NCBI GenBank assembly: GCA_000703065.1
Contig: JNLK01000001.1
Location: 1,944,001-2,008,000 of the forward strand
DNA from: Lachnospiraceae bacterium AC2029
GTDB taxonomy: Bacteria > Bacillota > Clostridia > Lachnospirales > Lachnospiraceae
Reading direction: 5' to 3'
Length of the DNA: 64,000 nucleotides
Under the pieces are notes generated by a model. The model ran no database searches. It saw only the letters and a list, made by a program, of their open reading frames with translations, and was not told the DNA's origin. The position numbers and the translations under genes are program-made. Shown in pieces: positions 17,587-31,586 of this stretch (positions are counted from its first letter, which is position 1; each line of letters starts with the position of its first letter).

Positions 17587-18210
17587 ATGAAGATCGTGAT
17601 CGTGGATGATGATAAACTGGTGGCGGTTTCTCTGAAAACCATCATAGAGGCCGGAGGAGATACGGAGGTGCTGGCAACCGGGCACAGCGGCGAGGAAGCG
17701 GTGGAGCTGTATCGCACACACCGGCCGGATATCCTTCTGATGGATATCCGTATGGAAGGAATGACAGGTCTGGAAGCGGGAAAGAAGATCCTGGGCGAAG
17801 ACCCCCAGGCGAGGATCCTGTTCCTGACTACATTTAACGACGATGAATATATCCGGACAGCGCTGGCCATCGGAGCCAAGGGCTATATCATAAAGCAGGA
17901 TTTCGACGGGATCCTGCCGGCACTCCGCGCGGTATACGAGGGGCAGTCCGTATTCGGAGATCAGGTGGTGGACCGGATCCCGGAACTGCTGTCTCCTCAG
18001 GAGAAGGAGTTCTCCTTCGAAGCTTACGGCCTGACGGATCAGGAGGCGGAGATCGTGGAATGCGTCGCAGACGGTCTTTCAAATAAGGAGATCGCGGAGA
18101 AACTCTATCTGTCGGAGGGTACGGTGCGGAATTACATCAGTACCATTCTCAGCAAACTGGATCTCCGGGACCGGACGAATCTTGCCATTTTCTACTACAA
18201 GAACAAATAA
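17587..18210 (+). CDS. NarL/LuxR-type response regulator
   Basis: A 207-residue DNA-binding regulator. The receiver domain (1-120) has the acidic pair DDD near residue 7, the phosphorylated aspartate D53 in LLMDIRMEG and a lysine in GYIIKQDF. The C-terminal LuxR HTH (about 145-205) contains LSNKEIAEKLYLSEGTVRNY. It should be activated by the histidine kinase at 18853, which is of the matching NarX/DesK-like class. ATG 17587 starts the receiver domain, and GGAAGGAAG lies just upstream; an earlier in-frame start adds ten residues without homology. The neighbouring exporter is the obvious candidate target. Confidence 0.9.
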   Translation: MKIVIVDDDKLVAVSLKTIIEAGGDTEVLATGHSGEEAVELYRTHRPDILLMDIRMEGMTGLEAGKKILGEDPQARILFLTTFNDDEYIRTALAIGAKGYIIKQDFDGILPALRAVYEGQSVFGDQVVDRIPELLSPQEKEFSFEAYGLTDQEAEIVECVADGLSNKEIAEKLYLSEGTVRNYISTILSKLDLRDRTNLAIFYYKNK

Positions 18211-18244
18211 AAGATTCTTCGGCTGACGCCTCAGAATGACAAGG

Positions 18245-18830
18245 CGATGTCATCCTGAGCGGAGCGAAGGATCTTAGCGCCGCGACAAAGCGATGTCATC
18301 CTGAGCGAAGCGAAGGATCTTAGCGCCGCGACAAAGCGATGTCATCCTGAGCGAAGCGAAGGATCTTAGCACTGCGACAAGGCGATGTCATCCTGAGCGA
18401 AGCGAAGGATCTTAGCACTGCGACAAGGCGATGTCATCCTGAGCGAAGCGAAGGATCTTAGCGCCGCGACAAAGCGATGTCATCCTGAGCGGAGCGAAGG
18501 ATCTTAGCGCCGCGACAAAGCGATGTCATCCTGAGCGGAGCGAAGGATCTTAGCGCCGCGACAAAGCGATGTCATCCTGAGCGGAGCGAAGGATCTTAGC
18601 GCCGCGACAAAGCGATGTCATCCTGAGCGAAGCGAAGGATCTTAGCGCCGCGACAAAGCGATGTCATCCTGAGCGGAGCGAAGGATCTTAGCGCCGCGAC
18701 AAAGCGATGTCATCCTGAGCGAAGCGAAGGATCTTAGCGCCGCGACAAAGCGATGTCATCCTGAGCGAAGCGAAGGATCTTAGCACTGCGACAAGGCGAT
18801 GTCATCCTGAGCGAAGCGAAGGATCTTACA
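18245..18830. repeat. 46-bp tandem repeat, 13 copies
   Basis: Units start at 18245, 18291, 18337 and on at exact 46-bp steps to 18797. Each reads CGATGTCATCCTGAGCGAAG...GGATCTTAGC with a spacer GCCGCGACAAAG or ACTGCGACAAGG. Copies differ mainly at GCGAAGCGAAG versus GGAGCGAAG. Each unit can form an ATCCT/AGGAT hairpin. It fills the whole gap between response regulator and kinase. Confidence 0.95.
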
Positions 18831-18852
18831 ACGAAGGAGAACGGGAACCCCC

Positions 18853-19998
18853 ATGGAACGAGCCATCGACAAGTGCATACTGTATATCGCAGGTCTGTAT
18901 GTACTCTGGCAGTCCTTTGGAGGAATGACGCGGCTGACAGCGGTTTACATGACTCTGGCCGTGGCAGCGGCCGTCCTGTGGCTGATCCCGAAGGACCGGA
19001 GGAAGAAAGAGGTGGTCGATGCGGCAGAGGTGCGACGGATCATCGCCTGTGTACTGATGGACGTGGCATCGGCTCTGGTGATCTTCGAACCGAATCTTCT
19101 GGGAATCCTGCCCCTGCTGGTATATGACCTGATCTACAGCCGGCATCTGATCGGTCTGGGACTTGCTCTGCTCGCCGGGATCAATGTGGTGCTCCGGGGA
19201 GTGATGGAGACCGGGCTCATCTGGTTCACGGCAGTGGCCATACTCCTGGCGGTCTGGCTCTGCTACAAGACGATCCGGCTTGCGGAACGGGAGAAGCAGA
19301 TCCTGCAGTTGCGGGACGATGATGAGGAACAGCGGCAGAAGCTGAACCGCCAGAATGAACAGCTTCTGGAGGCCAGGGACACCGAGGTCGTTACGGCACA
19401 GATGGCAGAACGGAACCGTATCGCAAGGGAGATCCATGATAATGTGGGACACACTCTGTCCCGGGCGCTTCTGCAGGTGGGAGCGCTGCTTGCGATCCAC
19501 AAGGAGGAGCCTGTACACACGGAGCTGACCGGAGTCCGGGAGACCCTGGACAGCGCCATGAACAGCATCCGTTCCAGTGTGCATGACCTGCATGATTCCT
19601 CCGTGGATCTGGAGGGAACGGTCCGTCAGATGACAGACCCTCTGAAGGAGGAGTTCCAGGTGACGGTAGATATCGATGCATCCCAGGATATGCCGCGGGA
19701 TGTAAAGTACGGACTGATCGGGATCCTGCGGGAGACCATTTCGAATATCCTGCGCCACAGCAGGAACGATACGGTACAGATCAGCATCCTGGAGCATCCG
19801 GGATTCTATCAGCTGGTGGTACATGATTACCTGTCGGCGGAGGGAAAGCGTCGCAGCAATCCCGTGGCCGGGAAGGAATCCGGCACTCCGGGGATCGGCC
19901 TTACGAATATCGAAAGCCGGGCCCGCGCCCTGGGCGGAACGGTGCGGATCTCCCAGGAGAACGGGTATCGTGTATTTGTGAGTGTGCCGAAGGCGTGA
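18853..19998 (+). CDS. Sensor histidine kinase (HisKA_3 class)
   Basis: A 381-residue membrane kinase. About five to six short helices fill residues 8-140 with almost no outer loop, so it probably senses within the membrane. A coiled coil (about 143-180) leads to the phosphoacceptor H195 in REIHDNVGHTLSRAL. The HATPase domain has the N box RETISNILRHS and the G box GTPGIGLTNIESRA. This is the usual partner class for NarL-type regulators such as the one at 17587. The ATG at 18853 follows GAAGGAGAACGGG. The 13-copy repeat immediately upstream means any cotranscript would carry about 590 nt of repeated hairpins between the two genes. Confidence 0.9.
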   Translation: MERAIDKCILYIAGLYVLWQSFGGMTRLTAVYMTLAVAAAVLWLIPKDRRKKEVVDAAEVRRIIACVLMDVASALVIFEPNLLGILPLLVYDLIYSRHLIGLGLALLAGINVVLRGVMETGLIWFTAVAILLAVWLCYKTIRLAEREKQILQLRDDDEEQRQKLNRQNEQLLEARDTEVVTAQMAERNRIAREIHDNVGHTLSRALLQVGALLAIHKEEPVHTELTGVRETLDSAMNSIRSSVHDLHDSSVDLEGTVRQMTDPLKEEFQVTVDIDASQDMPRDVKYGLIGILRETISNILRHSRNDTVQISILEHPGFYQLVVHDYLSAEGKRRSNPVAGKESGTPGIGLTNIESRARALGGTVRISQENGYRVFVSVPKA

Positions 19999-20074
19999 GG
20001 GGAGTTAGAACGACCAGGGTGCAAAATACCTTTTCTCCGGGCATTTAGTATCAATTTCGTTTTAGTATCAATAT

Positions 20075-20116
20075 GAGAGACCGAGTACGAAATTTTGGAC
20101 TCGGTCTCTCGTTTTG
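20075..20116 (+). terminator. Terminator after the histidine kinase
   Basis: A perfect 12-bp stem, GAGAGACCGAGT with ACTCGGTCTCTC, a 12-nt loop, then GTTTTG. It insulates the two-component system from the WYL/CRISPR region. Confidence 0.8.
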
Positions 20117-20127
20117 TCGTAAATATA

Positions 20128-20156
20128 CTGCAATTAATCTATTGATGTGATACAAT
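20128..20156 (+). promoter_or_regulatory. Possible promoter of the WYL regulator
   Basis: CTGCAA (20128-20133), 17 nt, TACAAT (20151-20156), about 50 nt ahead of the start codon. The -10 is good, the -35 weak. Confidence 0.45.
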
Positions 20157-20206
20157 ATTAATGTCGATTGTGTTGGGTGTTATATCGATTCTTTTGGGGG
20201 AATTCC

Positions 20207-21196
20207 ATGAATGATTATATAGTTGACAGCAGAGCGAGAGTGATCCTGCTGGCTAAGTTATTATACGAAAAAACAGATGAATCCCGGGGACTGACGGCGG
20301 ATCAGATCATTGAAGAATTGCAGAAACAGGGGATGAAGTCGGAACGCAAGACTCTGTATAAAGATATTGAGTGCTTGATCCAACTGGGGCATGATATCGT
20401 GAGATACAGACGGGGAAAGGAAGTCCTATACCATATAGGGGCGCGCCAATTTGAGATTGCTGAGCTTCGGATATTGATTGATTCCGTTCAGGCGTCACAT
20501 TTCCTTACAGCGGGAAAGACAAAGAAGCTGATAAAAAAACTGGAAAGGGTTGCGAGCGTCAGCGATGCAAAGAATCTTGAGAACAACGTTTATATCAGCG
20601 GGCAAAGGAAGGCAGCAAACGAAAGCATTTATTACTCTGTGAATGACCTTCATACAGCGATCGTGAATGATTGCAAGGTTTCTTTTCAGTATTTCCAATG
20701 GGATGTGAACAAGAAGGCAAAGCTGCGTCATGATGGAAAGGCATACGAGGTAAGCCCGTGGGCGATGTTGTTCGATCACGAGAACTATTACCTTGTGGCA
20801 TATGATTCTGATGTTGGACAGATGAAGCATTATCGGGTTGATAAGATGAAGAATCTGAGTGTTTTGGAGGAACAACGTTCGGGAAAAGAGGTGTTTGATC
20901 AGTACGACATGAGTACATTTACCCAGAGTATTTTTGGAATGTTCAACGGACAGGTGGAACATGTCAGATTGCGTGTAAGGAATGATCTGGCGGGAGTTAT
21001 GATAGACCGCTTTGGAAAAGAGATTGAGATCAGTGACGAACATAACGAGACATTTATCTTTGAGACAGATGTCAGAGTGAGTGACCAGTTTTTGGGATGG
21101 GTTATAGCTATCGGAGACGGCGTCGAGATTCTGTCACCGGAGTCAGTAAGAAATCAGTTAAGAGCTATTGGGAACCGACTGAAAAAACAATATTAA
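20207..21196 (+). CDS. WYL-domain transcriptional regulator
   Basis: A 329-residue regulator with an N-terminal winged HTH (about 8-70; LTADQIIEELQKQGMKSERKT region), a WYL domain (about 145-225, with the YEVSPWAMLFDHENYYLVAY core) and a C-terminal WCX-like segment. WYL proteins bind nucleic-acid or nucleotide ligands and some control CRISPR-Cas or defence genes. Its stop codon touches the terminator shared with the tracrRNA, and cas9 begins 145 nt downstream on the same strand, so a role in controlling this CRISPR locus is a reasonable inference. ATG 20207 follows TTGGGGGAATTCC. It is the first gene here with the AT-richer composition of the cas block. Confidence 0.85.
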   Translation: MNDYIVDSRARVILLAKLLYEKTDESRGLTADQIIEELQKQGMKSERKTLYKDIECLIQLGHDIVRYRRGKEVLYHIGARQFEIAELRILIDSVQASHFLTAGKTKKLIKKLERVASVSDAKNLENNVYISGQRKAANESIYYSVNDLHTAIVNDCKVSFQYFQWDVNKKAKLRHDGKAYEVSPWAMLFDHENYYLVAYDSDVGQMKHYRVDKMKNLSVLEEQRSGKEVFDQYDMSTFTQSIFGMFNGQVEHVRLRVRNDLAGVMIDRFGKEIEISDEHNETFIFETDVRVSDQFLGWVIAIGDGVEILSPESVRNQLRAIGNRLKKQY

Positions 21197-21219
21197 AAAA
21201 AGTCCCGAAGGACTTTTTT
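21195..21219. terminator. Bidirectional terminator shared by WYL gene and tracrRNA
   Basis: AAAAAAGTCC, a CGAA-type loop and GGACTTTTTT: a stem with A and T runs that act as a U-tract on either strand. It begins in the WYL stop codon on plus and forms the 3' end of the tracrRNA on minus. Confidence 0.9.
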
Positions 21220-21304
21220 AAGCACCAATGTGCGGCCGGTAAACCGGCGATTTCGAAAAATCTTTATTTGAACTCGTAGTGTGAATCCAGAGGGCTCCAG
21301 ATTC
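21196..21304 (-). ncRNA. tracrRNA of the type II-A system
   Basis: Transcribed opposite to cas9. From its 5' end comes an anti-repeat (complement of about 21270-21297) that pairs with the array repeat in two helices around the usual bulge: the repeat GTTTGA and AGTGTGAATCC regions match, with GAG opposite a mismatched segment. Three stems follow (GATTT/AAATC, CCGG/CCGG, GCAC/GTGC) and then the U-tract terminator. This layout (anti-repeat, nexus-like stem, 3' hairpins) is that of Cas9 guide scaffolds. The ends are predicted: the 5' end from the promoter, the 3' end from the terminator. Length is about 109 nt. Confidence 0.9.
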
Positions 21305-21310
21305 ACTTGT

Positions 21311-21339
21311 AGGATACCAAGACGGAGGAGGTTTGTCAA
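21311..21339 (-). promoter_or_regulatory. tracrRNA promoter inside the cas9 translation-start region
   Basis: On the minus strand a perfect TTGACA (complement of 21334-21339), 17 nt, then TATCCT (complement of 21311-21316). The -35 lies directly before the cas9 ATG and the spacer covers the cas9 GGAGGAGG ribosome site. Confidence 0.7.
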
Positions 21340-21341
21340 GC

Positions 21342-24300
21342 ATGAAAAAAGTTGGAGAGTATTATTTGGGACTGGATATCGGTACAGATTCTGTGGGATA
21401 CGCAACGACAGATCAGAGATACAATTTGCTTAAATACAAAGGGAAACCAATGTGGGGGTCTCATCTTTTTGATGCTGCTAATCAGTGTGCTGACCGCAGG
21501 GGGTTCCGTACTGCTCGCAGAAGACTTGATCGTCGCCAGCAGCGAGTTCAGCTTGTTGATGAAATCTTTGCGCCGGAAGTGTCAAAGGTGGATCCGAAAT
21601 TCTATACGAGAAGAAAGGCGAGTGCACTGTATGGAAAGGATCGACCGGATCTTACAGATGCAAATTCATGCTTTAACGATAAGGGGTATACGGATAAGGA
21701 GTATCACGAGGAGTACCCCACGATCCATCACCTGATCGTTGATCTGATGAAGAATACGGAGAAGAAGTTTGATATTCGGTTGATCAATATAGCTGTGGAC
21801 TGGCTTGTCGCACACAGAGGGCATTTTCTCAGTGATGTAGGGACAAATAATATTGACCGTGTATTGGAGTTTGATTCCATTTATGAAGAGTTTATTTCGT
21901 ATTTCGATGGTGAAGGATTTGAACGGCCCTGGGACTCCGTCGACGCCGGTAAATTTGGAGAGGTTCTGAAAGAAAAAGGAGTGAACCGCAAGAAGCTTGC
22001 CTTAAAGGATTTGCTCTATGGCGGAACGATTCCGAGTGATGAGGATTACTTTATTGACAGGAAAGAACTGGTCAATTTCCTGGCAGGCGGTAAGGTTCAT
22101 TGCAATAAACTCTTTCGGGGTTATGAATCTGAAGACGATATAACGATGACGATCAGCGATGACATGGAGATCCTTCTTCCTCAACTGGGTGATTATGCAA
22201 CCATAGTTGGAAAGATGGCAGCTATGTATGATTGGAGTGTCCTTTCGGATATCCTGTCTTCACATGCATTCATTTCCGAGGCGAAGGTAAAGGTTTATGA
22301 ACAGCACGGGGAAGACCTCCGGCGTTTGAAGGCATTTGTAAAAGAATACTACCCAAGAAAAAAATATAATGAAATATTCAGGGAATCCGGAAAAGACTGC
22401 ACGAATTATACGGCATATTCATATAATCTGAAATCAGTTGGGAACGGAGCGGAGCTTCCGAAGGGAAAAGCAACAAGAGAGGATTTCCTTAAATATTTGA
22501 AGCAGGCGCTTGATTTGGATAAAATCACTTGTCGGACGGAAGAGGATCAACAATTTGTGGATGAGTTGAAGGAACGGATCGCAGAAGGATCGTTCCTTCC
22601 GAAACAGGTCAACTCTGATAACAGGGTAATCCCCTATCAGCTATATTATGCTGAATTACAAAAGATCCTTGATAATGCGTCACGCCATTATGATTTTCTT
22701 AATGCCAAGGATGGAGATGGGTATGTTGCGAAGGAAAAACTCTTATCTGTATTTAAGTTCAAGATCCCTTATTATGTGGGACCGTTGAAGAAAGAGGATG
22801 ATAGTCCGTATGCATGGATCGTAAAGAAGGCAGACGGCCCTGTGCGTCCGTGGAATTTTGAGGAAAAGGTGGACCTGGATAAGAGTGAGAGTGCGTTCAT
22901 TGATCGCATGACGAATAGCTGTTCTTATATTCCGGGAGAGAATGTACTGCCGAAGAATTCTCTTTTATATACCAAGTATATGGTGTTGAACGAGATCAAT
23001 AACATAAAGGTAAATGGGGTAGCTATCACTGTAGAGGCTAAACAGGAAATATATGAGGAAGTATTCTGTAAAAACAGAAAAGTGACTCCGAAGATGATCA
23101 AGGGCAGGCTTGTTACGAGTGGGTGTATTCAAAAGGAAGATGAGATCAGCGGAATTGATGTTCAGGTTAATGCATCTATGAAATCCAGATATGATTTCAG
23201 AAAACTTCTTTCAGAAAAGAAACTTACAGAGGATGATGTTGAAGGGATCATTGCCCGCAGTACATACACTGAGGATCGGTACAGATACAAGAAATGGCTT
23301 AAGGAGAATTATCCGCAATTCGATGAGAAGGAGCTCAGAGATGTTGCGAAACTGAGATATACAGATTTTGGAAGGCTTTCAAGGTATTTTCTTTCCGGCC
23401 TTCAGGGTGCGTCCAAGGAAACAGGGGAAGTGGGAACGATCATGCACTTCCTTTGGAATACCAATGAGAATCTGATGCAGCTTCTCTCGGATCGTTACAC
23501 ATTTGTCGATGAAATTGAAAAACTGCGAAATGCTTATTATGCAGAACATAAAATGGGTATCAATGAGCAGATGGAGAATCTTGGAATATCCAATGCAGTG
23601 AAGAGACCTGTTACAAGAACGTTGGCTGTGGTTGATGATGTAGTATCAACCATTGGGCATGCTCCGGCAAAGATATTTGTGGAAATGGCCAGAGGTGAGG
23701 ATGAGAAGAAACAGCGGTCAGTCACAAGAAAGGATCAGATCCTGAATTATTACAGGGATGTGGAAGAAGATACCCGACTTTTGGAAAAGCAGTTGGAAGA
23801 TATGGGCGATACGGCTAATAATCGTCTTCAAAGTGATGCGCTCTTTTTGTATTACATGCAGTTGGGAAAATGTATGTACAGTGGGGAACCGATCGATCTG
23901 GCGTTGATAAAGACCGATAAATACAACATAGACCATATCTATCCGCAGAGTCTCGTAAAGGATGACAGTATTCTAAATAATCGGGTGCTTGTTCTTTCGA
24001 AGATCAATGGTGACAAGAAGGATGTATATCCGATTGATAAGGACATTCGTGTAAAAATGCAGCCCTTCTGGAAACATTTGTGTGATGCAAAGCTGATAAC
24101 GAAGGAGAAGTATGATCGGCTTACACGAGGGTCAAATTTTACTGATGAAGAAAAAATGGGATTTATTAATCGCCAGCTTGTTGAGACTCGCCAATCCATG
24201 AAAGCAGTTACTCAGATTCTGCATAATCTGTATCCGGAATCGGAAATCATATATGTAAAAGCAAGGCTTGCTTCTGATTTTAAAAAGGTATTTGATCTTG

Positions 24301-25415
24301 CGCCGAAATCAAGAATTATCAATGATCTTCATCATGCTAAGGACGCGTACCTGAACGTTGTAGCGGGAAATGTCTACCATGAAAAGTTTACAAAAAGATG
24401 GTTCAAGATTACGGATGAATACAGCATGAAGACGAAAGTGATCTTCTCTAAAGACCTGGTACGCAACGGAAAAACTATTTGGGATCATGAGCATGACTTG
24501 CAGACGGTCAGGAAAAGCTATGCATGGAATGATATTCATTTGACTCGTTACGCTTACTGTCAAAAAGGCGGTTTATTTGATCAGATGCCTGTCAAGAAAG
24601 GTAAAGGGCAGGTTTCGTTGAAGGATGGAATGAATATTGACATGTATGGCGGATACAATAAACCGACAGCCAGCTTTTTCACGATTGCAAAGTATCTTAA
24701 GGGCGGAAAGAAGGAAGTATCGTTTGTGCCGGTAGATTTAATGGCAGGTGAGCGATTCTTAAAGGATGAGGAGTTTGCGCGTGAATACGTTAAGAAGACA
24801 TTGCAGGAAATCAACACTAAAAAAATTGATAATGTCGAGTTTCCGTGCAAAAATCGGGTTGTGAGGATAAAATCCACGTTATTGATTGACAATGTAAGAG
24901 TTTGGGTAAATGGAAAATCGAATGGCGGGAAGATAATACTTCTTACATCGGCGGAAAGCGCTTATTTCGATCGTGAGACAACAATTTATATTGGGAAAAT
25001 AGAAAAGTATGCTGAAAAGAAAAAATTGAATCGAAATCTCAGGCATGATGAACAATACGATGGATTATCTTGCAAAAACAATATTCGATTATACAACATG
25101 ATTGTTGATAAACTGAGGAAACCACCGTTTTCTGATATGCCTGGAAATCAGGCCCAAACTTTGGAAGATGGAAAATTTCTATTTGAAAAATGTGAATTTG
25201 ATATTCAGATTCAGACCCTTCTTAACTGTCTCAATCTATTGAAGTCCGGTCGCGCTGGTGGATGCGATCTTAAGGCAGTAGGAGGAAAAAATTCCAGTGG
25301 AGCGATGACATTGGGAGCAAACGTGTCCTCGGGAAAATACAAAAGAATCAGTATTGTCAATTATTCTCCGGCGGGCCTACATGTTTCCACATCCGATAAT
25401 ATTTTGGAGATGTAA
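21342..25415 (+). CDS. cas9: CRISPR-associated endonuclease Cas9 (type II-A)
   Basis: A 1357-residue RNA-guided double-strand DNA nuclease. RuvC-I has D12 in YYLGLDIGTDSVGYA; the arginine-rich bridge helix follows (RRGFRTARRRLDRR). The helical recognition lobe spans about 95-765. RuvC-II has E781 in IFVEMARGED. HNH has D864-H865 in YNIDHIYPQS with NNRVLV after it. RuvC-III has HHAKDAYLN with H998 and D1001. The rest is the PAM-interacting region. All catalytic residues are present and there are no frame breaks. ATG 21342 fits GGAGGAGG at 21324 with 10-nt spacing; a TTG three codons earlier is too close. cas1 starts 1 nt after the stop. No plus-strand promoter was clear in the short upstream gap. 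Confidence 0.98.
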   Translation: MKKVGEYYLGLDIGTDSVGYATTDQRYNLLKYKGKPMWGSHLFDAANQCADRRGFRTARRRLDRRQQRVQLVDEIFAPEVSKVDPKFYTRRKASALYGKDRPDLTDANSCFNDKGYTDKEYHEEYPTIHHLIVDLMKNTEKKFDIRLINIAVDWLVAHRGHFLSDVGTNNIDRVLEFDSIYEEFISYFDGEGFERPWDSVDAGKFGEVLKEKGVNRKKLALKDLLYGGTIPSDEDYFIDRKELVNFLAGGKVHCNKLFRGYESEDDITMTISDDMEILLPQLGDYATIVGKMAAMYDWSVLSDILSSHAFISEAKVKVYEQHGEDLRRLKAFVKEYYPRKKYNEIFRESGKDCTNYTAYSYNLKSVGNGAELPKGKATREDFLKYLKQALDLDKITCRTEEDQQFVDELKERIAEGSFLPKQVNSDNRVIPYQLYYAELQKILDNASRHYDFLNAKDGDGYVAKEKLLSVFKFKIPYYVGPLKKEDDSPYAWIVKKADGPVRPWNFEEKVDLDKSESAFIDRMTNSCSYIPGENVLPKNSLLYTKYMVLNEINNIKVNGVAITVEAKQEIYEEVFCKNRKVTPKMIKGRLVTSGCIQKEDEISGIDVQVNASMKSRYDFRKLLSEKKLTEDDVEGIIARSTYTEDRYRYKKWLKENYPQFDEKELRDVAKLRYTDFGRLSRYFLSGLQGASKETGEVGTIMHFLWNTNENLMQLLSDRYTFVDEIEKLRNAYYAEHKMGINEQMENLGISNAVKRPVTRTLAVVDDVVSTIGHAPAKIFVEMARGEDEKKQRSVTRKDQILNYYRDVEEDTRLLEKQLEDMGDTANNRLQSDALFLYYMQLGKCMYSGEPIDLALIKTDKYNIDHIYPQSLVKDDSILNNRVLVLSKINGDKKDVYPIDKDIRVKMQPFWKHLCDAKLITKEKYDRLTRGSNFTDEEKMGFINRQLVETRQSMKAVTQILHNLYPESEIIYVKARLASDFKKVFDLAPKSRIINDLHHAKDAYLNVVAGNVYHEKFTKRWFKITDEYSMKTKVIFSKDLVRNGKTIWDHEHDLQTVRKSYAWNDIHLTRYAYCQKGGLFDQMPVKKGKGQVSLKDGMNIDMYGGYNKPTASFFTIAKYLKGGKKEVSFVPVDLMAGERFLKDEEFAREYVKKTLQEINTKKIDNVEFPCKNRVVRIKSTLLIDNVRVWVNGKSNGGKIILLTSAESAYFDRETTIYIGKIEKYAEKKKLNRNLRHDEQYDGLSCKNNIRLYNMIVDKLRKPPFSDMPGNQAQTLEDGKFLFEKCEFDIQIQTLLNCLNLLKSGRAGGCDLKAVGGKNSSGAMTLGANVSSGKYKRISIVNYSPAGLHVSTSDNILEM

Positions 25416-25416
25416 A

Positions 25417-26289
25417 ATGAGTTGGCGTGTTGTTGTGATCTCATCAAGATGTAAGCTGGATTACAGCATGAATTATATGGTGATACGAGGGGAAGAAACG
25501 CAGAGAATCCTAATTGATGAAATAGCGGTTTTGATTCTTGAAAATAACGCTGTTTCCATGACGGGATGTTTACTATCATCCTTGTTGGAAAAGAAAATCA
25601 AAGTTATTCTCTGCGATTCTACAAGGAGTCCGCAAGCGGAGATGCTCCCCTATTATGGGGCACATAACAGTTCGCTTAAGATTAAACAACAGATTGCATG
25701 GAAGGATGAGATTAAGCAACAGACGTGGACCCAGATTGTTCGTGAGAAAATACTGAACCAGTCAAAACTTCTTGTGAAATATGAAAAGAGTAAAGAATCG
25801 GAGATGCTTCAGGGATACACAAAAGAAATAAAATCGGGTGACATATCGAATAGAGAAGGCCATGCCGCAAAGGTATATTTTAATGCGCTCTTTGGAATGA
25901 AGTTTACAAGGAGTGATGAAGAGAATCCTATAAATTCAGCTCTTAACTATGGATATTCATTGATTTTGTCTGCATTTAATCGAGAAGTTGTACTGAATGG
26001 ATATCTGACGCAATTAGGATTGGCTCATGACAATCAGTTTAACCATTACAATCTGAGCTGTGATCTTATGGAACCATTTCGGATCATTGTGGATCAGGAA
26101 GTAAGGAACCGTATTCCGGAAACGTTTGGGAAAGAGGAAAAACATCAATTGGTTGATATTCTAAATAAGACTTATCGGATCCGGAACACGGGACAGACGT
26201 TATTAAACGCAATCAAGATATATTCAAAGAGTGTCTTTGACGCTTTGGAAGAGGAAAATGTAGAATTGATAAGGTTTGTGGAGATATGA
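25417..26289 (+). CDS. cas1: CRISPR integrase Cas1 (type II)
   Basis: A 290-residue integrase that, with Cas2, inserts new spacers at the leader end of the array. The metal-binding active site is intact: E148 in [10 protein letters not shown]204 in LGLAHDNQ and E219 in [10 protein letters not shown], at nearly the same positions as in other type II-A Cas1 proteins. The N-terminal beta domain covers about 1-75. ATG 25417 lies 1 nt after the cas9 stop. Longer in-frame starts would overlap cas9 by about 20 codons and lack homology. The stop overlaps the cas2 start (ATGA). Confidence 0.97.
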
Positions 26290-26606
26290 GTTATCGGTTT
26301 ATGAGAATCATTGTTTTTTTTGACCTTCCGACAATTACAGATAAAGATAAAAGAGAGTACAGACAGTTTCGGAAACTGTTGATCAAGAATGGATTCGTGA
26401 TGATGCAGGAATCGGCGTATACGCGAATGGTTCTTAATCAGACTGTCCAAAAATCTGTGATAGAACTGCTGAAAAAGAATAAGCCGTCCGGAGGGATGGT
26501 TCAGGCATTGGTAGTGACGGAAAAACAATTTGCAGGTATTGAAAATATCTGTGAACAGTTTGTTTCAAATATCATTGATACGGATGAAAGGTTGGTGATC
26601 ATTTGA
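26286..26606 (+). CDS. cas2: CRISPR-associated Cas2
   Basis: A 106-residue ferredoxin-fold protein that bridges two Cas1 dimers during spacer integration. The first strand [26 protein letters not shown] carries the conserved aspartate, and the later segment [13 protein letters not shown] is typical of the family. The start is set at the ATGA overlap with cas1 (26286); an alternative Met five codons later (26301) gives a more usual N-terminus. Its stop overlaps the TTG start of csn2, so cas1, cas2 and csn2 are translationally chained. Confidence 0.95.
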
Positions 26607-27268
26607 AAATTGTAGCTGACTATCTTCCAACATGTATCGAGCTGAATGAAGGAGAGACGGTTACCCTTGTTGTTGAGCATAAGGGAACGTTCCTTCGGAT
26701 TCTTCATGATCTGTATAACCAATCAAAGGGTATTGAGGGGGATCTCATTTTATCGGAGGACGGAAAGGAAGTAAAAGTATCCAAACGACTTGAACTGGTG
26801 TCCTCCTTTGTTCCCTTTGATCTCAACGAAAAACGGTTGATCACGCGAATTAACAACATTCTGGAGCGGGAGGCTTTAGACGGTGATCATTACAATGACA
26901 CTATGAGACTTTTAGCTGAAATTGAGAAGTATGTTAATTCAATAGCTGGATATTTCCCTTTTCCGATAGTTTGTCAGGGGATAAATGCAAATTCTTTGAT
27001 AAAGATGTGTAGTGTCATGATCGAGGATGATGGAGTAAATGATATTGACAGAGTATTAAACTATATTTCGATCATTAATGATTTATTTGGGGACAGACTA
27101 TTCGTGTTGATCAATATGACGATGTTTTTTACCGACGAGGATATACAAGGATTTATTACAACATGTAATGTGCATAAATATCAGGTGCTTCTTATAGATG
27201 GTGTTGAAAGCAATGAGTACAAAGGTGCGCGGAGGTTGATAATTGACAAAGATCTATGCACAATTTAA
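26603..27268 (+). CDS. csn2: CRISPR adaptation protein Csn2
   Basis: A 221-residue type II-A adaptation protein. Csn2 forms a ring around free DNA ends and is needed for spacer capture with Cas1, Cas2 and Cas9. The N-terminus, the [14 protein letters not shown] stretch, and the central segment [20 protein letters not shown] fit the family; the length matches the short (about 220-residue) Csn2 class. The TTG start at 26603 overlaps the cas2 stop; there is no better ATG. Its presence is what assigns this locus to subtype II-A rather than II-C. The array leader begins right after its stop. Confidence 0.92.
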
Positions 27269-27374
27269 GCATTGGGATTCATCCTTTGGGGTTTGCACGC
27301 CAGGAATCGTAGGGCTGGTTATTTCAAATGATACATCTTATTTCTTTTCGCAGAGACGGGATTTGAGGTTTGAG
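27269..27374 (+). promoter_or_regulatory. CRISPR leader with leader-anchoring sequence
   Basis: This is the 106 bp between csn2 and the first repeat. It ends in ATTTGAG (27361-27367) followed by GTTTGAG (27368-27374), which duplicates the first 7 nt of the repeat. ATTTGAG is the leader-end anchor known for type II-A integration. A clear -35/-10 pair for pre-crRNA was not identified. Confidence 0.75.
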
Positions 27375-29647
27375 GTTTGAGAGTAGTGTGAATCCAGAGG
27401 GCTCCAAAACTTATGTATGTTACATAATTCGAATTTGTTTGTTTGAGAGTAGTGTGAATCCAGAGGGCTCCAAAACCATCATCTCCGTATATATCAACGG
27501 CCTGATGTTTGAGAGTAGTGTGAATCCAGAGGGCTCCAAAACTAAAAACGGTATCGGAACATGGCTTTATAGTTTGAGAGTAGTGTGAATCCAGAGGGCT
27601 CCAAAACATATCATCGGAAAAGTGGTAGAACTCAGGGTTTGAGAGTAGTGTGAATCCAGAGGGCTCCAAAACCAACACCCAGAGCATTGATGAAATTCCA
27701 GTGTTTGAGAGTAGTGTGAATCCAGAGGGCTCCAAAACACAATGACTGAAGGAAAGAAAGAGACTGCTGTTTGAGAGTAGTGTGAATCCAGAGGGCTCCA
27801 AAACAAGCAGGACTGGGATACCGAAGACCTGCTGTTTGAGAGTAGTGTGAATCCAGAGGGCTCCAAAACCCCCGGCGGACTTCGTGGGGCAAATGTGGGT
27901 TTGAGAGTAGTGTGAATCCAGAGGGCTCCAAAACCCGGAAGATTTTGATTCTTACTTACAATATGTTTGAGAGTAGTGTGAATCCAGAGGGCTCCAAAAC
28001 ATATAGGGGGTGATTGGTATGGGGAAAGCCGTTTGAGAGTAGTGTGAATCCAGAGGGCTCCAAAACCTTCGACCCCATGCCATTTATAAAGCCCTGGTTT
28101 GAGAGTAGTGTGAATCCAGAGGGCTCCAAAACTAGATGGTGAACTTGTGGTCAATCCATATGTTTGAGAGTAGTGTGAATCCAGAGGGCTCCAAAACGCC
28201 CTCATGTATCCCCAATCCGAATTATCCGTTTGAGAGTAGTGTGAATCCAGAGGGCTCCAAAACTCCATTCATTCGCAACCCGTGTCATGTACTGTTTGAG
28301 AGTAGTGTGAATCCAGAGGGCTCCAAAACTCAAAATGTATTTATACATAGATGGTTTAGTTTGAGAGTAGTGTGAATCCAGAGGGCTCCAAAACCTATTG
28401 CGCCCACGAACAAACCAACGATAAGTTTGAGAGTAGTGTGAATCCAGAGGGCTCCAAAACCATCAAAGCGACCGGAGCCACTGGAGAGTCGTTTGAGAGT
28501 AGTGTGAATCCAGAGGGCTCCAAAACTATGATGGCGCTACTGCTAACCTTGCCGGAGTTTGAGAGTAGTGTGAATCCAGAGGGCTCCAAAACCCGGACTA
28601 TGACGAACCGGAACCGGATCCGGTTTGAGAGTAGTGTGAATCCAGAGGGCTCCAAAACCTCGATGGTGTCAGGTGTCTGAACGCTGTTGTTTGAGAGTAG
28701 TGTGAATCCAGAGGGCTCCAAAACGCCGGACAGGTCCTGATGGTTAATGCACAGGTTTGAGAGTAGTGTGAATCCAGAGGGCTCCAAAACGGAGGGGATC
28801 CGATATGCAGCAATACACGGGTTTGAGAGTAGTGTGAATCCAGAGGGCTCCAAAACTGAAATCAGCATGATTATCGAGGTCGCATGTTTGAGAGTAGTGT
28901 GAATCCAGAGGGCTCCAAAACGCTGGATCTCGAGACGGAGCTGGAGAGACGGTTTGAGAGTAGTGTGAATCCAGAGGGCTCCAAAACTGAGCTGAAACGG
29001 TTGCTGAATCATCTGGTGTTTGAGAGTAGTGTGAATCCAGAGGGCTCCAAAACTCTACAAAGAAGAAAAGTCGATGTTAACGGGTTTGAGAGTAGTGTGA
29101 ATCCAGAGGGCTCCAAAACTGGCTTGACGGGATCTGTTTTGAGGATCTGGTTTGAGAGTAGTGTGAATCCAGAGGGCTCCAAAACCCGATGGATTGAGGG
29201 GACGAAACTTGCGTAGTTTGAGAGTAGTGTGAATCCAGAGGGCTCCAAAACATCACCGGAGTGTTTGAAGAATGGGAGGTAGTTTGAGAGTAGTGTGAAT
29301 CCAGAGGGCTCCAAAACCGAAGAACCGACAGTATGCCTCAAATTATTGTTTGAGAGTAGTGTGAATCCAGAGGGCTCCAAAACCAAGATAACAGGTTTTA
29401 CATGGAATAATAAGTTTGAGAGTAGTGTGAATCCAGAGGGCTCCAAAACGGAAAGAAGAACGCAGCGCCCTTGCTTGCAGTTTGAGAGTAGTGTGAATCC
29501 AGAGGGCTCCAAAACTCAGCTTTGCCGGCTGTATAATCTGAACAGGTTTGAGAGTAGTGTGAATCCAGAGGGCTCCAAAACCGACGCGAGAGTGAACATG
29601 GTGGCCATCGTGTTTGAGAGTAGTGTGAATCCAAAGGGCTCCGAAAA
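27375..29647 (+). CRISPR. CRISPR array, 35 repeats and 34 spacers
   Basis: The repeat is 36 bp, starting GTTTGAGAGTAGTGTG and ending GGGCTCCAAAAC, identical in all internal copies I compared. Spacers are 29-30 nt (starts at 27411, 27477, 27543 and so on). The last repeat (29612-29647) is degenerate (AAAGGG and CCGAAAA changes), which marks the leader-distal end and fixes the orientation as plus, downstream of csn2. No two spacers looked alike on reading. Spacers look like coding DNA from diverse sources but I cannot assign any to a target. The long open frames across the array arise only because 66 is divisible by three. Confidence 0.99.
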
Positions 29648-29713
29648 TGGGGCGTTTGGGTGAAGATGGTGATTTGATGTTTACAGTCCTCTTGGAGTAT
29701 GTGTACAAAACAA

Positions 29714-29752
29714 AGAGGAGGAAGACAGGATTGCTGTTGTCTTCCTCCTCGA
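29714..29752 (-). terminator. Terminator of rubrerythrin
   Basis: A 13-bp stem (GAGGAGGAAGACA with TGTCTTCCTCCTC) followed on the minus strand by CTTTGTTTTG, located just after the rubrerythrin stop. It also separates that gene from the end of the CRISPR array. Confidence 0.8.
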
Positions 29753-29758
29753 TTACGT

Positions 29759-30304
29759 TTAGTAGTTCTCCGCATGTACCTCGAAGAAGCTCTGCGGGTG
29801 ATTGCAAACCGGGCATACATCCGGTGCCTTTGTGCCGACCACGATGTGTCCGCAGTTTCTGCACTCCCAGATCTTGACCTCGCTCTTCTCGAATACCTGC
29901 TGCATTTCCACGTTGTTCAGAAGGGCACGGTAGCGTTCCTCATGGTGCTTCTCGATCTCGGCAACGCCGCGGAACTTGGCTGCCAACTCGGGGAAGCCCT
30001 CCTCCTCTGCGGTCTTTGCGAAGCCTTCATACATATCGGTCCACTCGTAGTTCTCACCCTCGGCAGCAGCCTTCAGGTTGTCGGCGGTAGAACCGATCCC
30101 CTTCAGCTCCTTGAACCAGAGCTTTGCATGCTCCTTCTCATTTTCGGCCGTCTTCAGAAAGAGAGCCGAGATCTGCTCATATCCCTCCTTCTTTGCTACG
30201 GATGCAAAGTAGGTGTATTTGTTTCTTGCTTCCGACTCTCCGGCAAAGGCTGCCTGAAGATTCTTCTCGGTCTGTGTACCGGCATAAGGATTTGTGTTTG
30301 CCAT
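29759..30304 (-). CDS. rbr: Rubrerythrin
   Basis: A 181-residue non-haem iron protein that reduces hydrogen peroxide in the cytosol of anaerobes. Residues about 1-140 form the four-helix ferritin-like diiron domain with ExxH-type ligands ([44 protein letters not shown]). The C-terminus is a rubredoxin-like iron centre, ECRNCG...[11 protein letters not shown] 30304 follows AAGGGAGGTAC on the minus strand; an upstream in-frame start adds 13 residues without homology. It is monocistronic, with its own promoter and terminator. Confidence 0.95.
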
Positions 30305-30343
30305 GATTTGTACCTCCCTTGAAAAAGATTGTCTCATACACAT

Positions 30344-30372
30344 ATTTTATGAGATATACGGGTGTTTTTCAA
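30344..30372 (-). promoter_or_regulatory. Promoter of rubrerythrin
   Basis: On minus: TTGAAA (complement of 30367-30372), 17 nt, TAAAAT (complement of 30344-30349), 40 nt before the start codon. Confidence 0.7.
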
Positions 30373-30425
30373 GCAGGAAAGTGGTATACTGATAAGGTCT
30401 TGAAGACTCTTAGGGGGAGAGCCAG

Positions 30426-31586
30426 ATGATCAGTTACTATACTATGATAATTCTATTATCCCTTATGGCGCTTGGGATCCTCTGCATTCTGGTCAGGGAA
30501 AACGGCCGCCTTCCTGCGAAGGATAAGCATATGTTCTACCTGACCTACGGACTGATCGCGCTTTCCGCGGTCGCAGAGTGGCTCGGCATCCAGATGAACG
30601 GACAGGCAGATATGCCCAGATGGTCCCTTCTTGTGATCAAATGCTGCGACTATATCCTTACACCGTTTGCAGGGGGTATCTTTATAGGACAGATGCGGAT
30701 CCGGAATATCTGGAGCCGGATACTGGTCTTTGTTCTTATGGTCAATACGGTTTTTCAGGTGATCTCCGTCTTTACCGGATGGATGGTTACGCTGGATGAC
30801 CAGAACCGGTATGCTCACGGCGCCCTGTACATTTGGTATGTCGCCGTTTACGTTATCGTGATCATTATCATCATGATCCAGTTTATGATCTACGGGAAGT
30901 CCTTCCGACGGCAGAACCGGATCTCGCTCTATTCCATCGTCTTTCTTGTGGTGGCGGGGATCCTCATACAGGAGCTGTTCGGAGCGGAGTTCCGTACAGC
31001 GTATCTGGCACTGACCTTCGGTGCGATCCTGCTTTTTATTCACATTACGGAGTTTGCCCAGCTGGCATCGGATGAATATATCGAGAAGCAGCAGGTGGCT
31101 ATCACTACGGATGTACTGACCGGAGTTCTCAGCCGGTATGCATATACAGAGAGGCTGAAGGATCTTGCGGTGACGGGGATCCCCGGCGACTTCGTGGCAT
31201 TTTCCATTGATATCAACGAACTGAAGAGCGTAAATGATACCCTGGGCCATGAGGCAGGTGATGAGCTGATCTGCGGAGCGGCGACCTGTATCCGGAAGGC
31301 GATGGGTGCGGACGGTGACTGTTACCGTACCGGCGGAGATGAATTTGTGGTTCTTGCAAGGATGAGCCGGGATGACGTGGACGGCGCCATGAACCGGCTG
31401 GGGCATGAGCTGGATTCCTGGACCGGTGAAAAGGTAAAGGGGCTTCGCCTTGCAGTGGGTTATGCTCTGGCAGAAGATCATGTCAGTCTTTCGGTGGAGA
31501 AACTGATCGAAGAAGCCGATTTCGCCATGTATGACGCAAAGGCAGCCTACTATCAGGCGATGGGTATCGAACGGAGAAGGCATTAA
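30426..31586 (+). CDS. Membrane-bound diguanylate cyclase (GGDEF)
   Basis: A 386-residue protein with about six to seven N-terminal membrane helices (residues 1-205) and little outer loop. A C-terminal GGDEF domain (about 225-380) has the intact catalytic loop RTGGDEFVVLARM and the DINELKSVNDTLGHEAGDE metal/nucleotide region. It should make cyclic di-GMP in response to a membrane signal. The RxxD inhibitory site is not evident. The start has AGGGGGAGAGCC upstream. The stop is only 13 nt before the DHH phosphoesterase start, suggesting one transcript and a possible link between nucleotide making and breaking. Confidence 0.9.
   Translation: MISYYTMIILLSLMALGILCILVRENGRLPAKDKHMFYLTYGLIALSAVAEWLGIQMNGQADMPRWSLLVIKCCDYILTPFAGGIFIGQMRIRNIWSRILVFVLMVNTVFQVISVFTGWMVTLDDQNRYAHGALYIWYVAVYVIVIIIIMIQFMIYGKSFRRQNRISLYSIVFLVVAGILIQELFGAEFRTAYLALTFGAILLFIHITEFAQLASDEYIEKQQVAITTDVLTGVLSRYAYTERLKDLAVTGIPGDFVAFSIDINELKSVNDTLGHEAGDELICGAATCIRKAMGADGDCYRTGGDEFVVLARMSRDDVDGAMNRLGHELDSWTGEKVKGLRLAVGYALAEDHVSLSVEKLIEEADFAMYDAKAAYYQAMGIERRRH

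Follow-up and report, generated by a model that had tools for sequence, protein, structure and literature searches.

The window, as we call the whole 64,000-nt stretch of DNA analysed here, contains a complete type II-A CRISPR-Cas locus (Table 1), in which cas9, cas1, cas2 and csn2 lie together, all four scoring above the curated Pfam cut-offs, accompanied by an array of 34 repeats of 36 nt and by a tracrRNA gene whose anti-repeat combines a 24-nt identity with a lower stem. A degenerate final repeat (29612-29647) comes after the 34 identical ones. Comparison of positions 20000-30500 with Rfam gave no match at E <= 0.1. When the 33 array spacers were compared with the remainder of the window, no exact 14-mer was found in common, which speaks against spacers that target this region. 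Approximately 18238-18835 is taken up by a tandem array of 46-nt period, its core 93-97% alike; as judged by eye it is flanked by a response-regulator gene (ending at 18210) and a sensor-kinase gene (starting at 18853).

Table 1. Features of the CRISPR-Cas locus and of the tracrRNA-cas9 junction, in window coordinates
Feature	Position	Strand	Remarks and basis
WYL/WCX-domain transcription regulator	20207..21196	+	directly upstream of tracrRNA/cas9, same direction as cas9; Pfam
tracrRNA gene	21196..21306	-	predicted start 21304-21306, end at terminator; anti-repeat match to array repeat, terminator, fold
Intrinsic terminator of tracrRNA	21196..21219	-	near-symmetrical; sequence
Anti-repeat	21266..21299	-	24 nt (21276-21299) identical to repeat complement, plus lower stem GAGTTCAAAT
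tracrRNA 5'-terminal hairpin	21281..21306	-	11 bp, loop GCCC, 3' arm = anti-repeat; fold and co-variation
Extended -10 of tracrRNA promoter (predicted)	21311..21319	-	TGG-TATCCT; sequence, column conservation
cas9 Shine-Dalgarno	21324..21331	+	GGAGGAGG, within promoter spacer; sequence
-35 box of tracrRNA promoter (predicted)	21334..21339	-	TTGACA, between cas9 Shine-Dalgarno and ATG; sequence and conservation
cas9	21342..25415	+	1357 aa, ATG start 21342-21344; Pfam Cas9_REC, Cas9_PI, HNH_4, Cas9-BH, Cas9_RuvC
cas1	25417..26289	+	start chosen by eye; Pfam (scanned from 25471)
cas2	26286..26606	+	Pfam
csn2	26603..27268	+	Pfam
CRISPR array	27375..29581	+	34 identical 36-nt repeats, 33 spacers of 29-30 nt

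A promoter-like site inside the cas9 translation start

The predicted tracrRNA promoter consists, on the minus strand, of a TTGACA (21339-21334), a 17-nt spacer (21333-21317) and a TATCCT (21316-21311), with a TG one base before the -10. An earlier note on this DNA had described this pair, placing its spacer over the cas9 Shine-Dalgarno and its -35 box directly against the cas9 ATG. Sequence and site scan bear out the pair, and GGAGGAGG indeed lies inside the spacer; as for the -35 box, it comes into near contact with the ATG, two bases (21340-21341) and not zero standing between them. The minus-strand start that the note had expected near 21304 agrees with our predicted start, which coincides with the first bases of a conserved hairpin at the tracrRNA 5' end.

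Within positions 20500-22000 the pair is the sole promoter-like site found by the scan, matching the consensus at 10 of 12 positions. Given that shuffled versions of this region yield 2.8 such sites on average, a single consensus match is no proof and conservation must decide. In the sequence of the window, as in the alignment columns of the 22 loci described below, the predicted promoter displays the features of the sigma-70 extended -10 type, namely TTGACA, a spacing of 16-18 nt and a TATAAT-like hexamer with TG. The combination GGAGG N1-6 TGTCAA N0-3 ATG is present at two places in the whole 3.86-Mb genome, at cas9 and at one other, which opens an ordinary-looking reading frame; by chance about 0.7 would be expected, as estimated from equal base frequencies.

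Conservation of the fusion among Cas9 relatives

The window was compared with 21 chosen Cas9 relatives. The resulting 22 loci were drawn from the 25 Cas9 rows of highest bits, from which the near-copies L002, L050 and L011 as well as L020 were dropped, and to which the contig-end fragment L006 was added; the near-twin pairs L013/L014 and L015/L051 were retained. L020, with 44 nt upstream only, carries by eye a weaker TTGAAA adjoining its ATG. We find that in all 22 loci the -35 box stands 0-2 nt from the cas9 start (in L026, whose -10, TAATCT, falls under the script threshold, the gap was read by eye), that the -10 is placed 17-18 nt from the -35 box and that the anti-repeat comes right after. 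The successive TTGACA columns are conserved in 22, 20, 22, 22, 22 and 21 of the 22 loci, -10 positions 1, 2 and 6 in 20, 20 and 22, and the TG in 19 and 17; apart from the Shine-Dalgarno columns, the rest of the spacer is variable. According to the earlier note, its reading would fall if close relatives lacked the TTGACA/TATCCT pair. As a promoter pair it is conserved in the 22 loci, yet the exact TATCCT is not general, being found in two (the window and L009), with different -10 boxes in the rest. Judged from sequence comparison, a sigma-70-type promoter in front of the tracrRNA gene, in fixed overlap with the cas9 start, is very highly probable.

Two other accounts of the -35 box were rejected. 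A chance match is ruled out by the conservation across 22 loci. Conservation for the sake of translation alone is ruled out on two grounds: conservation reaches as far as the extended -10 and its final T, and other lineages carry a pair of this kind at a distance of 4-98 nt from the start.

On a wider scale, the promoter was scored in 67 of 90 Cas9 rows; in the remaining 23 the flank is missing, the tracrRNA core unrecognisable or the score below threshold (L026, L029 and L038, read by eye). After nine near-copies or short rows were dropped, the gap is 0-2 nt in 22 of the 59 rows (21 of the clade described below and L089) and 4-64 nt in 37; L032 and L042, near-copies of each other outside this count, have gaps of 97 and 98 nt. 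The fusion is kept even where Cas9 identity to the window protein, taken over the first aligned segment, has fallen to 41-50%. L015, from the cultured Mediterraneibacter glycyrrhizinilyticus, shares the layout of the window. Viral contigs contained no stretch matching the Cas9 patterns. One relative (L084, genome G520) shows its Cas9 matches in two separate pieces, and its tracrRNA promoter fusion is intact.

A FastTree phylogeny of Cas9 with local SH-like support was built from 65 rows, four of them unscored for the gap; L006 was left out, and L026 and L084 are absent, their frames being too short. The fusion occurs in 19 of 19 rows of one clade (support 100), while L089 and L029 are fused and placed apart; in the other scored lineages the -35 box lies 4-98 nt from the cas9 start. 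Mapped on the tree, the fusion requires three changes of state; well-supported branches force two of these, and the placement of L029 is weak (open fork at 82). The three changes may represent repeated gain, or one gain and two losses, and in L089 and L029 the fusion has perhaps arisen independently of the clade. Thus the fusion is old and has become fixed in one clade of type II-A Cas9, and it was possibly reached more than once.

The origin of cas9 transcription

For a cas9 mRNA to include the Shine-Dalgarno, its 5' end has to lie at 21324 or further upstream, and so inside or behind the tracrRNA promoter. A plus-strand cas9 promoter inside the tracrRNA gene was considered and rejected, none rising above shuffles in the 22 loci: in the region of that gene (-115 to -18) the best plus-strand score is 7.86, versus 7.56 in shuffles, and the lowest p for any single locus is 0.10 (L015). 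The same analysis of the minus strand, as a control, gave 11.23 versus 7.79. Further upstream (-320 to -116), 20 loci show a slight excess in plus-strand promoter score (9.05 versus 8.32 in shuffles), convincing in L081 only (13) and perhaps present in L013/L014, L021, L022 and L052; the corresponding region of the window has no promoter excess (8 versus 7.8). With no recognisable cas9 promoter in the tracrRNA gene, transcription of cas9 probably comes from further upstream and would read through that gene antisense.

What lies upstream differs between loci. The nearest open reading frames, called mechanically and with L079 left out, number 19 from 21 loci, 15 of them on the plus strand and 4 on the minus strand. 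By eye, a WYL-type gene is upstream also in L009, L010, L012 and L006, with a fragment in L084, and the WYL/WCX protein is a possible regulator of the CRISPR locus.

A hairpin at the tracrRNA 5' end

The predicted tracrRNA of the window starts at the first base of the hairpin GUGAAUCUGGA-GCCC-UCUGGAUUCAC, a perfect 11 bp, and the 114-nt RNA folds at -40 kcal/mol (z -5.1). A 5' hairpin, its letters differing, is found in 34 of 34 long-anti-repeat tracrRNAs examined, 28 of them at p <= 0.05 against shuffles (the six above this value are L017, L026, L089, L025, L085 and L062); the count holds for this class, as the 34 comprise 22 fused-clade loci and 12 from elsewhere, selected by eye because their anti-repeat is long, with the near-twins L013/L014 and L015/L051 among them. 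Since 31 of the 328 hairpin pairs are G-U, the hairpin fits an RNA structure rather than a DNA palindrome. The MAFFT alignment (A1) misaligns the 5' arms, and pair counts were replaced by arm swapping, in which own arms of 32 loci gave -8.42 kcal/mol and swapped arms -3.80 (sd 0.41; minimum over 500 permutations -5.09). This permutation ignores kinship, for which near pairs chosen by eye correct in part: in 14 such hand-picked pairs the own arm was better in 9, worse in 1 and equal in 4. Some hairpins are weak, such as that of L022 at -3.2 kcal/mol, for which 13 of the 31 foreign arms are equally good. Within longer RNA (up to 115 nt) the pair probability of the hairpin exceeds 0.5 in 32 of the 34 loci. 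Among 26 other non-redundant loci, the 5' stretch measures 14-24 nt in 24, of which 22 show no fold and two (L003 and L075) a weak one (p 0.18 and 0.13); the two with longer stretches, L047 and L045, gave p 0.06 and 0.28. We consider it very likely that the tracrRNA 5' hairpin is real.

A hairpin arising as a mere copy of the repeat complement is ruled out by 11 loci whose repeat is known, since their 5' arms are not a continuation of the anti-repeat. At these loci five positions of the 3' arm pair in the hairpin and not with the crRNA repeat. Twelve arm positions are Watson-Crick with the crRNA and G-U in the hairpin, and two the reverse, indicating that crRNA pairing is the stronger constraint. 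The full crRNA-tracrRNA duplex, at -54.8 kcal/mol versus -14.0, is far stronger, so that the crRNA can open the hairpin. The model that we propose is a gate: the hairpin would hide the upper anti-repeat, and the crRNA repeat would bind the freer lower anti-repeat and open the hairpin by strand displacement. The 16 nt meant for the first half of the repeat are unpaired to 60% on average and to 72% in the window, and a value of only 60% counts against such a gate, as do the weak hairpins and the stronger constraint from crRNA pairing; we consider the gate conceivable though somewhat doubtful. Alternatively, the hairpin may be a cap that protects against 5' decay, or it may act as gate and cap both.

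Interference and its alternatives

A question follows, what would the fusion do? The earlier note took the overlap to mean mutual interference that links tracrRNA and Cas9 levels, a reading that our analysis supports in part. If cas9 is read from upstream, the polymerases transcribing it would have started before they reach the tracrRNA gene (in the window, the WYL gene is a possible source), would traverse that gene over its full length in antisense, and would then pass over and clear the tracrRNA promoter, making a cas9 leader antisense to tracrRNA. A polymerase sitting on the tracrRNA promoter would in turn cover the cas9 translation start on the DNA and so be an obstacle to cas9 transcription. 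The expected net effect, if both units are busy, would be mutual damping of cas9 and tracrRNA. It is the lack of a recognisable cas9 promoter in the tracrRNA gene that makes interference likely at all. The layout suggests that mutual interference is physically likely; that it is of measurable size has, we estimate, slightly less than an even chance, and that the overlap is a selected control appears unlikely. The near-symmetrical tracrRNA terminator may be active on the plus strand too, and it could count against interference by stopping upstream transcription before it reaches cas9.

A fixed overlap can be kept without regulatory benefit, and because signals that share bases cannot move, its persistence is weak evidence of function. 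Accordingly, the overlap might reflect an evolutionary ratchet, in which compaction put the -35 box between Shine-Dalgarno and ATG, after which neither could move, with no regulatory effect. Both signals do use the same bases, the 19 clade rows show the zero loss that a ratchet predicts, and the related lineages L093, L038 and L039, with the -35 box just upstream of the Shine-Dalgarno, have an arrangement that speaks for it. L089, and perhaps L029, look separate, which suggests that the state may have been reached repeatedly and speaks against the ratchet, although compaction alone could also bring this about. We regard the ratchet as a serious possibility, if not the probable one.

Control might instead act at the level of RNA, the cas9 leader pairing with tracrRNA and leading to RNase III cleavage, or soaking up tracrRNA. 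With cas9 read from upstream, leader and tracrRNA would be perfectly complementary over approximately 110 bases, and an antisense transcript over the tracrRNA 3' end has been observed in S. agalactiae (PMC4448216). This reading depends, however, on an upstream promoter that the scan did not locate, and the highly folded tracrRNA may pair slowly; we hold it to be distinctly unlikely. A further reading has cas9 transcribed from the other strand of a shared, two-way -10 (TAGGAT on the plus strand, start near 21324), so that the promoters would compete for one polymerase site. Symmetry of a -10 box can give divergent transcription, and a plus-strand start at this place would leave a short leader containing the Shine-Dalgarno; yet TAGGAT is a poor -10 and the plus-strand score is not above shuffles in the 22 loci, making this quite improbable. 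Autorepression of the Streptococcus type, in which a long tracrRNA serves as a natural single guide, is hardly credible: to the eye the hairpin's 5' arm does look like a portion of the repeat, as a worn pseudo-repeat would (L053 and L013 are examples), but it has the upper stem only, without the lower-stem half, is preceded by the promoter and bears no guide matching Pcas, and in the first 300 nt of cas9 in the 22 loci a consensus scan of the minus strand found no second, long-form promoter above chance (best 8.14 versus 8.19 in shuffles).

Taken whole, the explanation that we prefer, with promoter fusion, upstream cas9 transcription, interference and the hairpin as a further layer, falls a little short of an even chance. 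A more far-reaching form of it, speculative and in our opinion rather unlikely, would have a clade without a free-standing cas9 promoter, in which each Cas9 message costs the passage of a polymerase across both tracrRNA gene and tracrRNA promoter, the tracrRNA is locked and opened by the repeat through toehold strand displacement, and Cas9, tracrRNA and crRNA are kept in proportion with neither a regulator protein nor guide-directed repression.

With promoter and ribosome site fused, tracrRNA and Cas9 could hardly be expressed without mutual contact, and the conservation of this state at 41-50% Cas9 identity provides a natural test of whether opposed transcription sets the levels of Cas9 and tracrRNA. 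If the hairpin is a gate for crRNA pairing, it would add a step to guide formation and could stop long anti-repeats from pairing with stray RNAs. The usual single-guide design omits the tracrRNA 5' arm, and the gate, if true, would therefore matter to anyone taking guide RNAs from these Cas9s. To our knowledge, how the cost of Cas9 is restrained outside Streptococcus has been little studied.

Comparison with known systems

In the tracr-L of S. pyogenes, as in the tracrRNA of the window, the anti-repeat pairs with a 5' stretch that resembles the repeat. Control of cas expression by a long tracrRNA is a Streptococcus theme, as outlined in PMC11417352 and PMC8730458, and the tracr-L/tracr-S system of S. 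pyogenes, in the outline given by PMC11417352, resembles ours in being type II-A, in having the tracrRNA locus beside cas9 and in a link to cas expression. By the same outline the tracrRNA of S. pyogenes has two promoters, and a guide directs Cas9 to Pcas, whereas in the window one promoter and no guide were found, and the tracrRNA promoter itself lies within the cas9 translation start. The earlier note was thus right to set the locus apart from the long-tracrRNA control of S. pyogenes, neither a second promoter (by consensus scan) nor a guide-bearing pseudo-repeat having been found.

A precedent for transcription across the tracrRNA gene is P2cas of group B Streptococcus, from which, as summarised in PMC12216829, cas9 is transcribed starting at the tracrRNA 3' end and crossing the tracrRNA gene antisense. 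Most strains have in addition a proximal P1cas, and P2cas is CovR-controlled, in the same summary. In the window, by contrast, tracrRNA promoter and cas9 leave no space for a P1 between them, and a P2 was not recognised.

A search of titles and abstract openings, not exhaustive for tracrRNA surveys, found neither a tracrRNA promoter inside a cas9 ribosome site nor a 5' hairpin over an anti-repeat. A likeness to the latter is the leader hairpin that hides an extra repeat in type II-A arrays (work of 2022, as described in PMC12080349), which also masks a repeat-type stretch from its partner RNA. That hairpin, in the same description, is part of the crRNA precursor, where it blocks a single unwanted crRNA, whereas ours is in the tracrRNA, where the anti-repeat would be hidden until displaced. 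The system is therefore an ordinary type II-A by content, and the fusion of promoter and ribosome site is a fixed, conserved variant of type II-A architecture.
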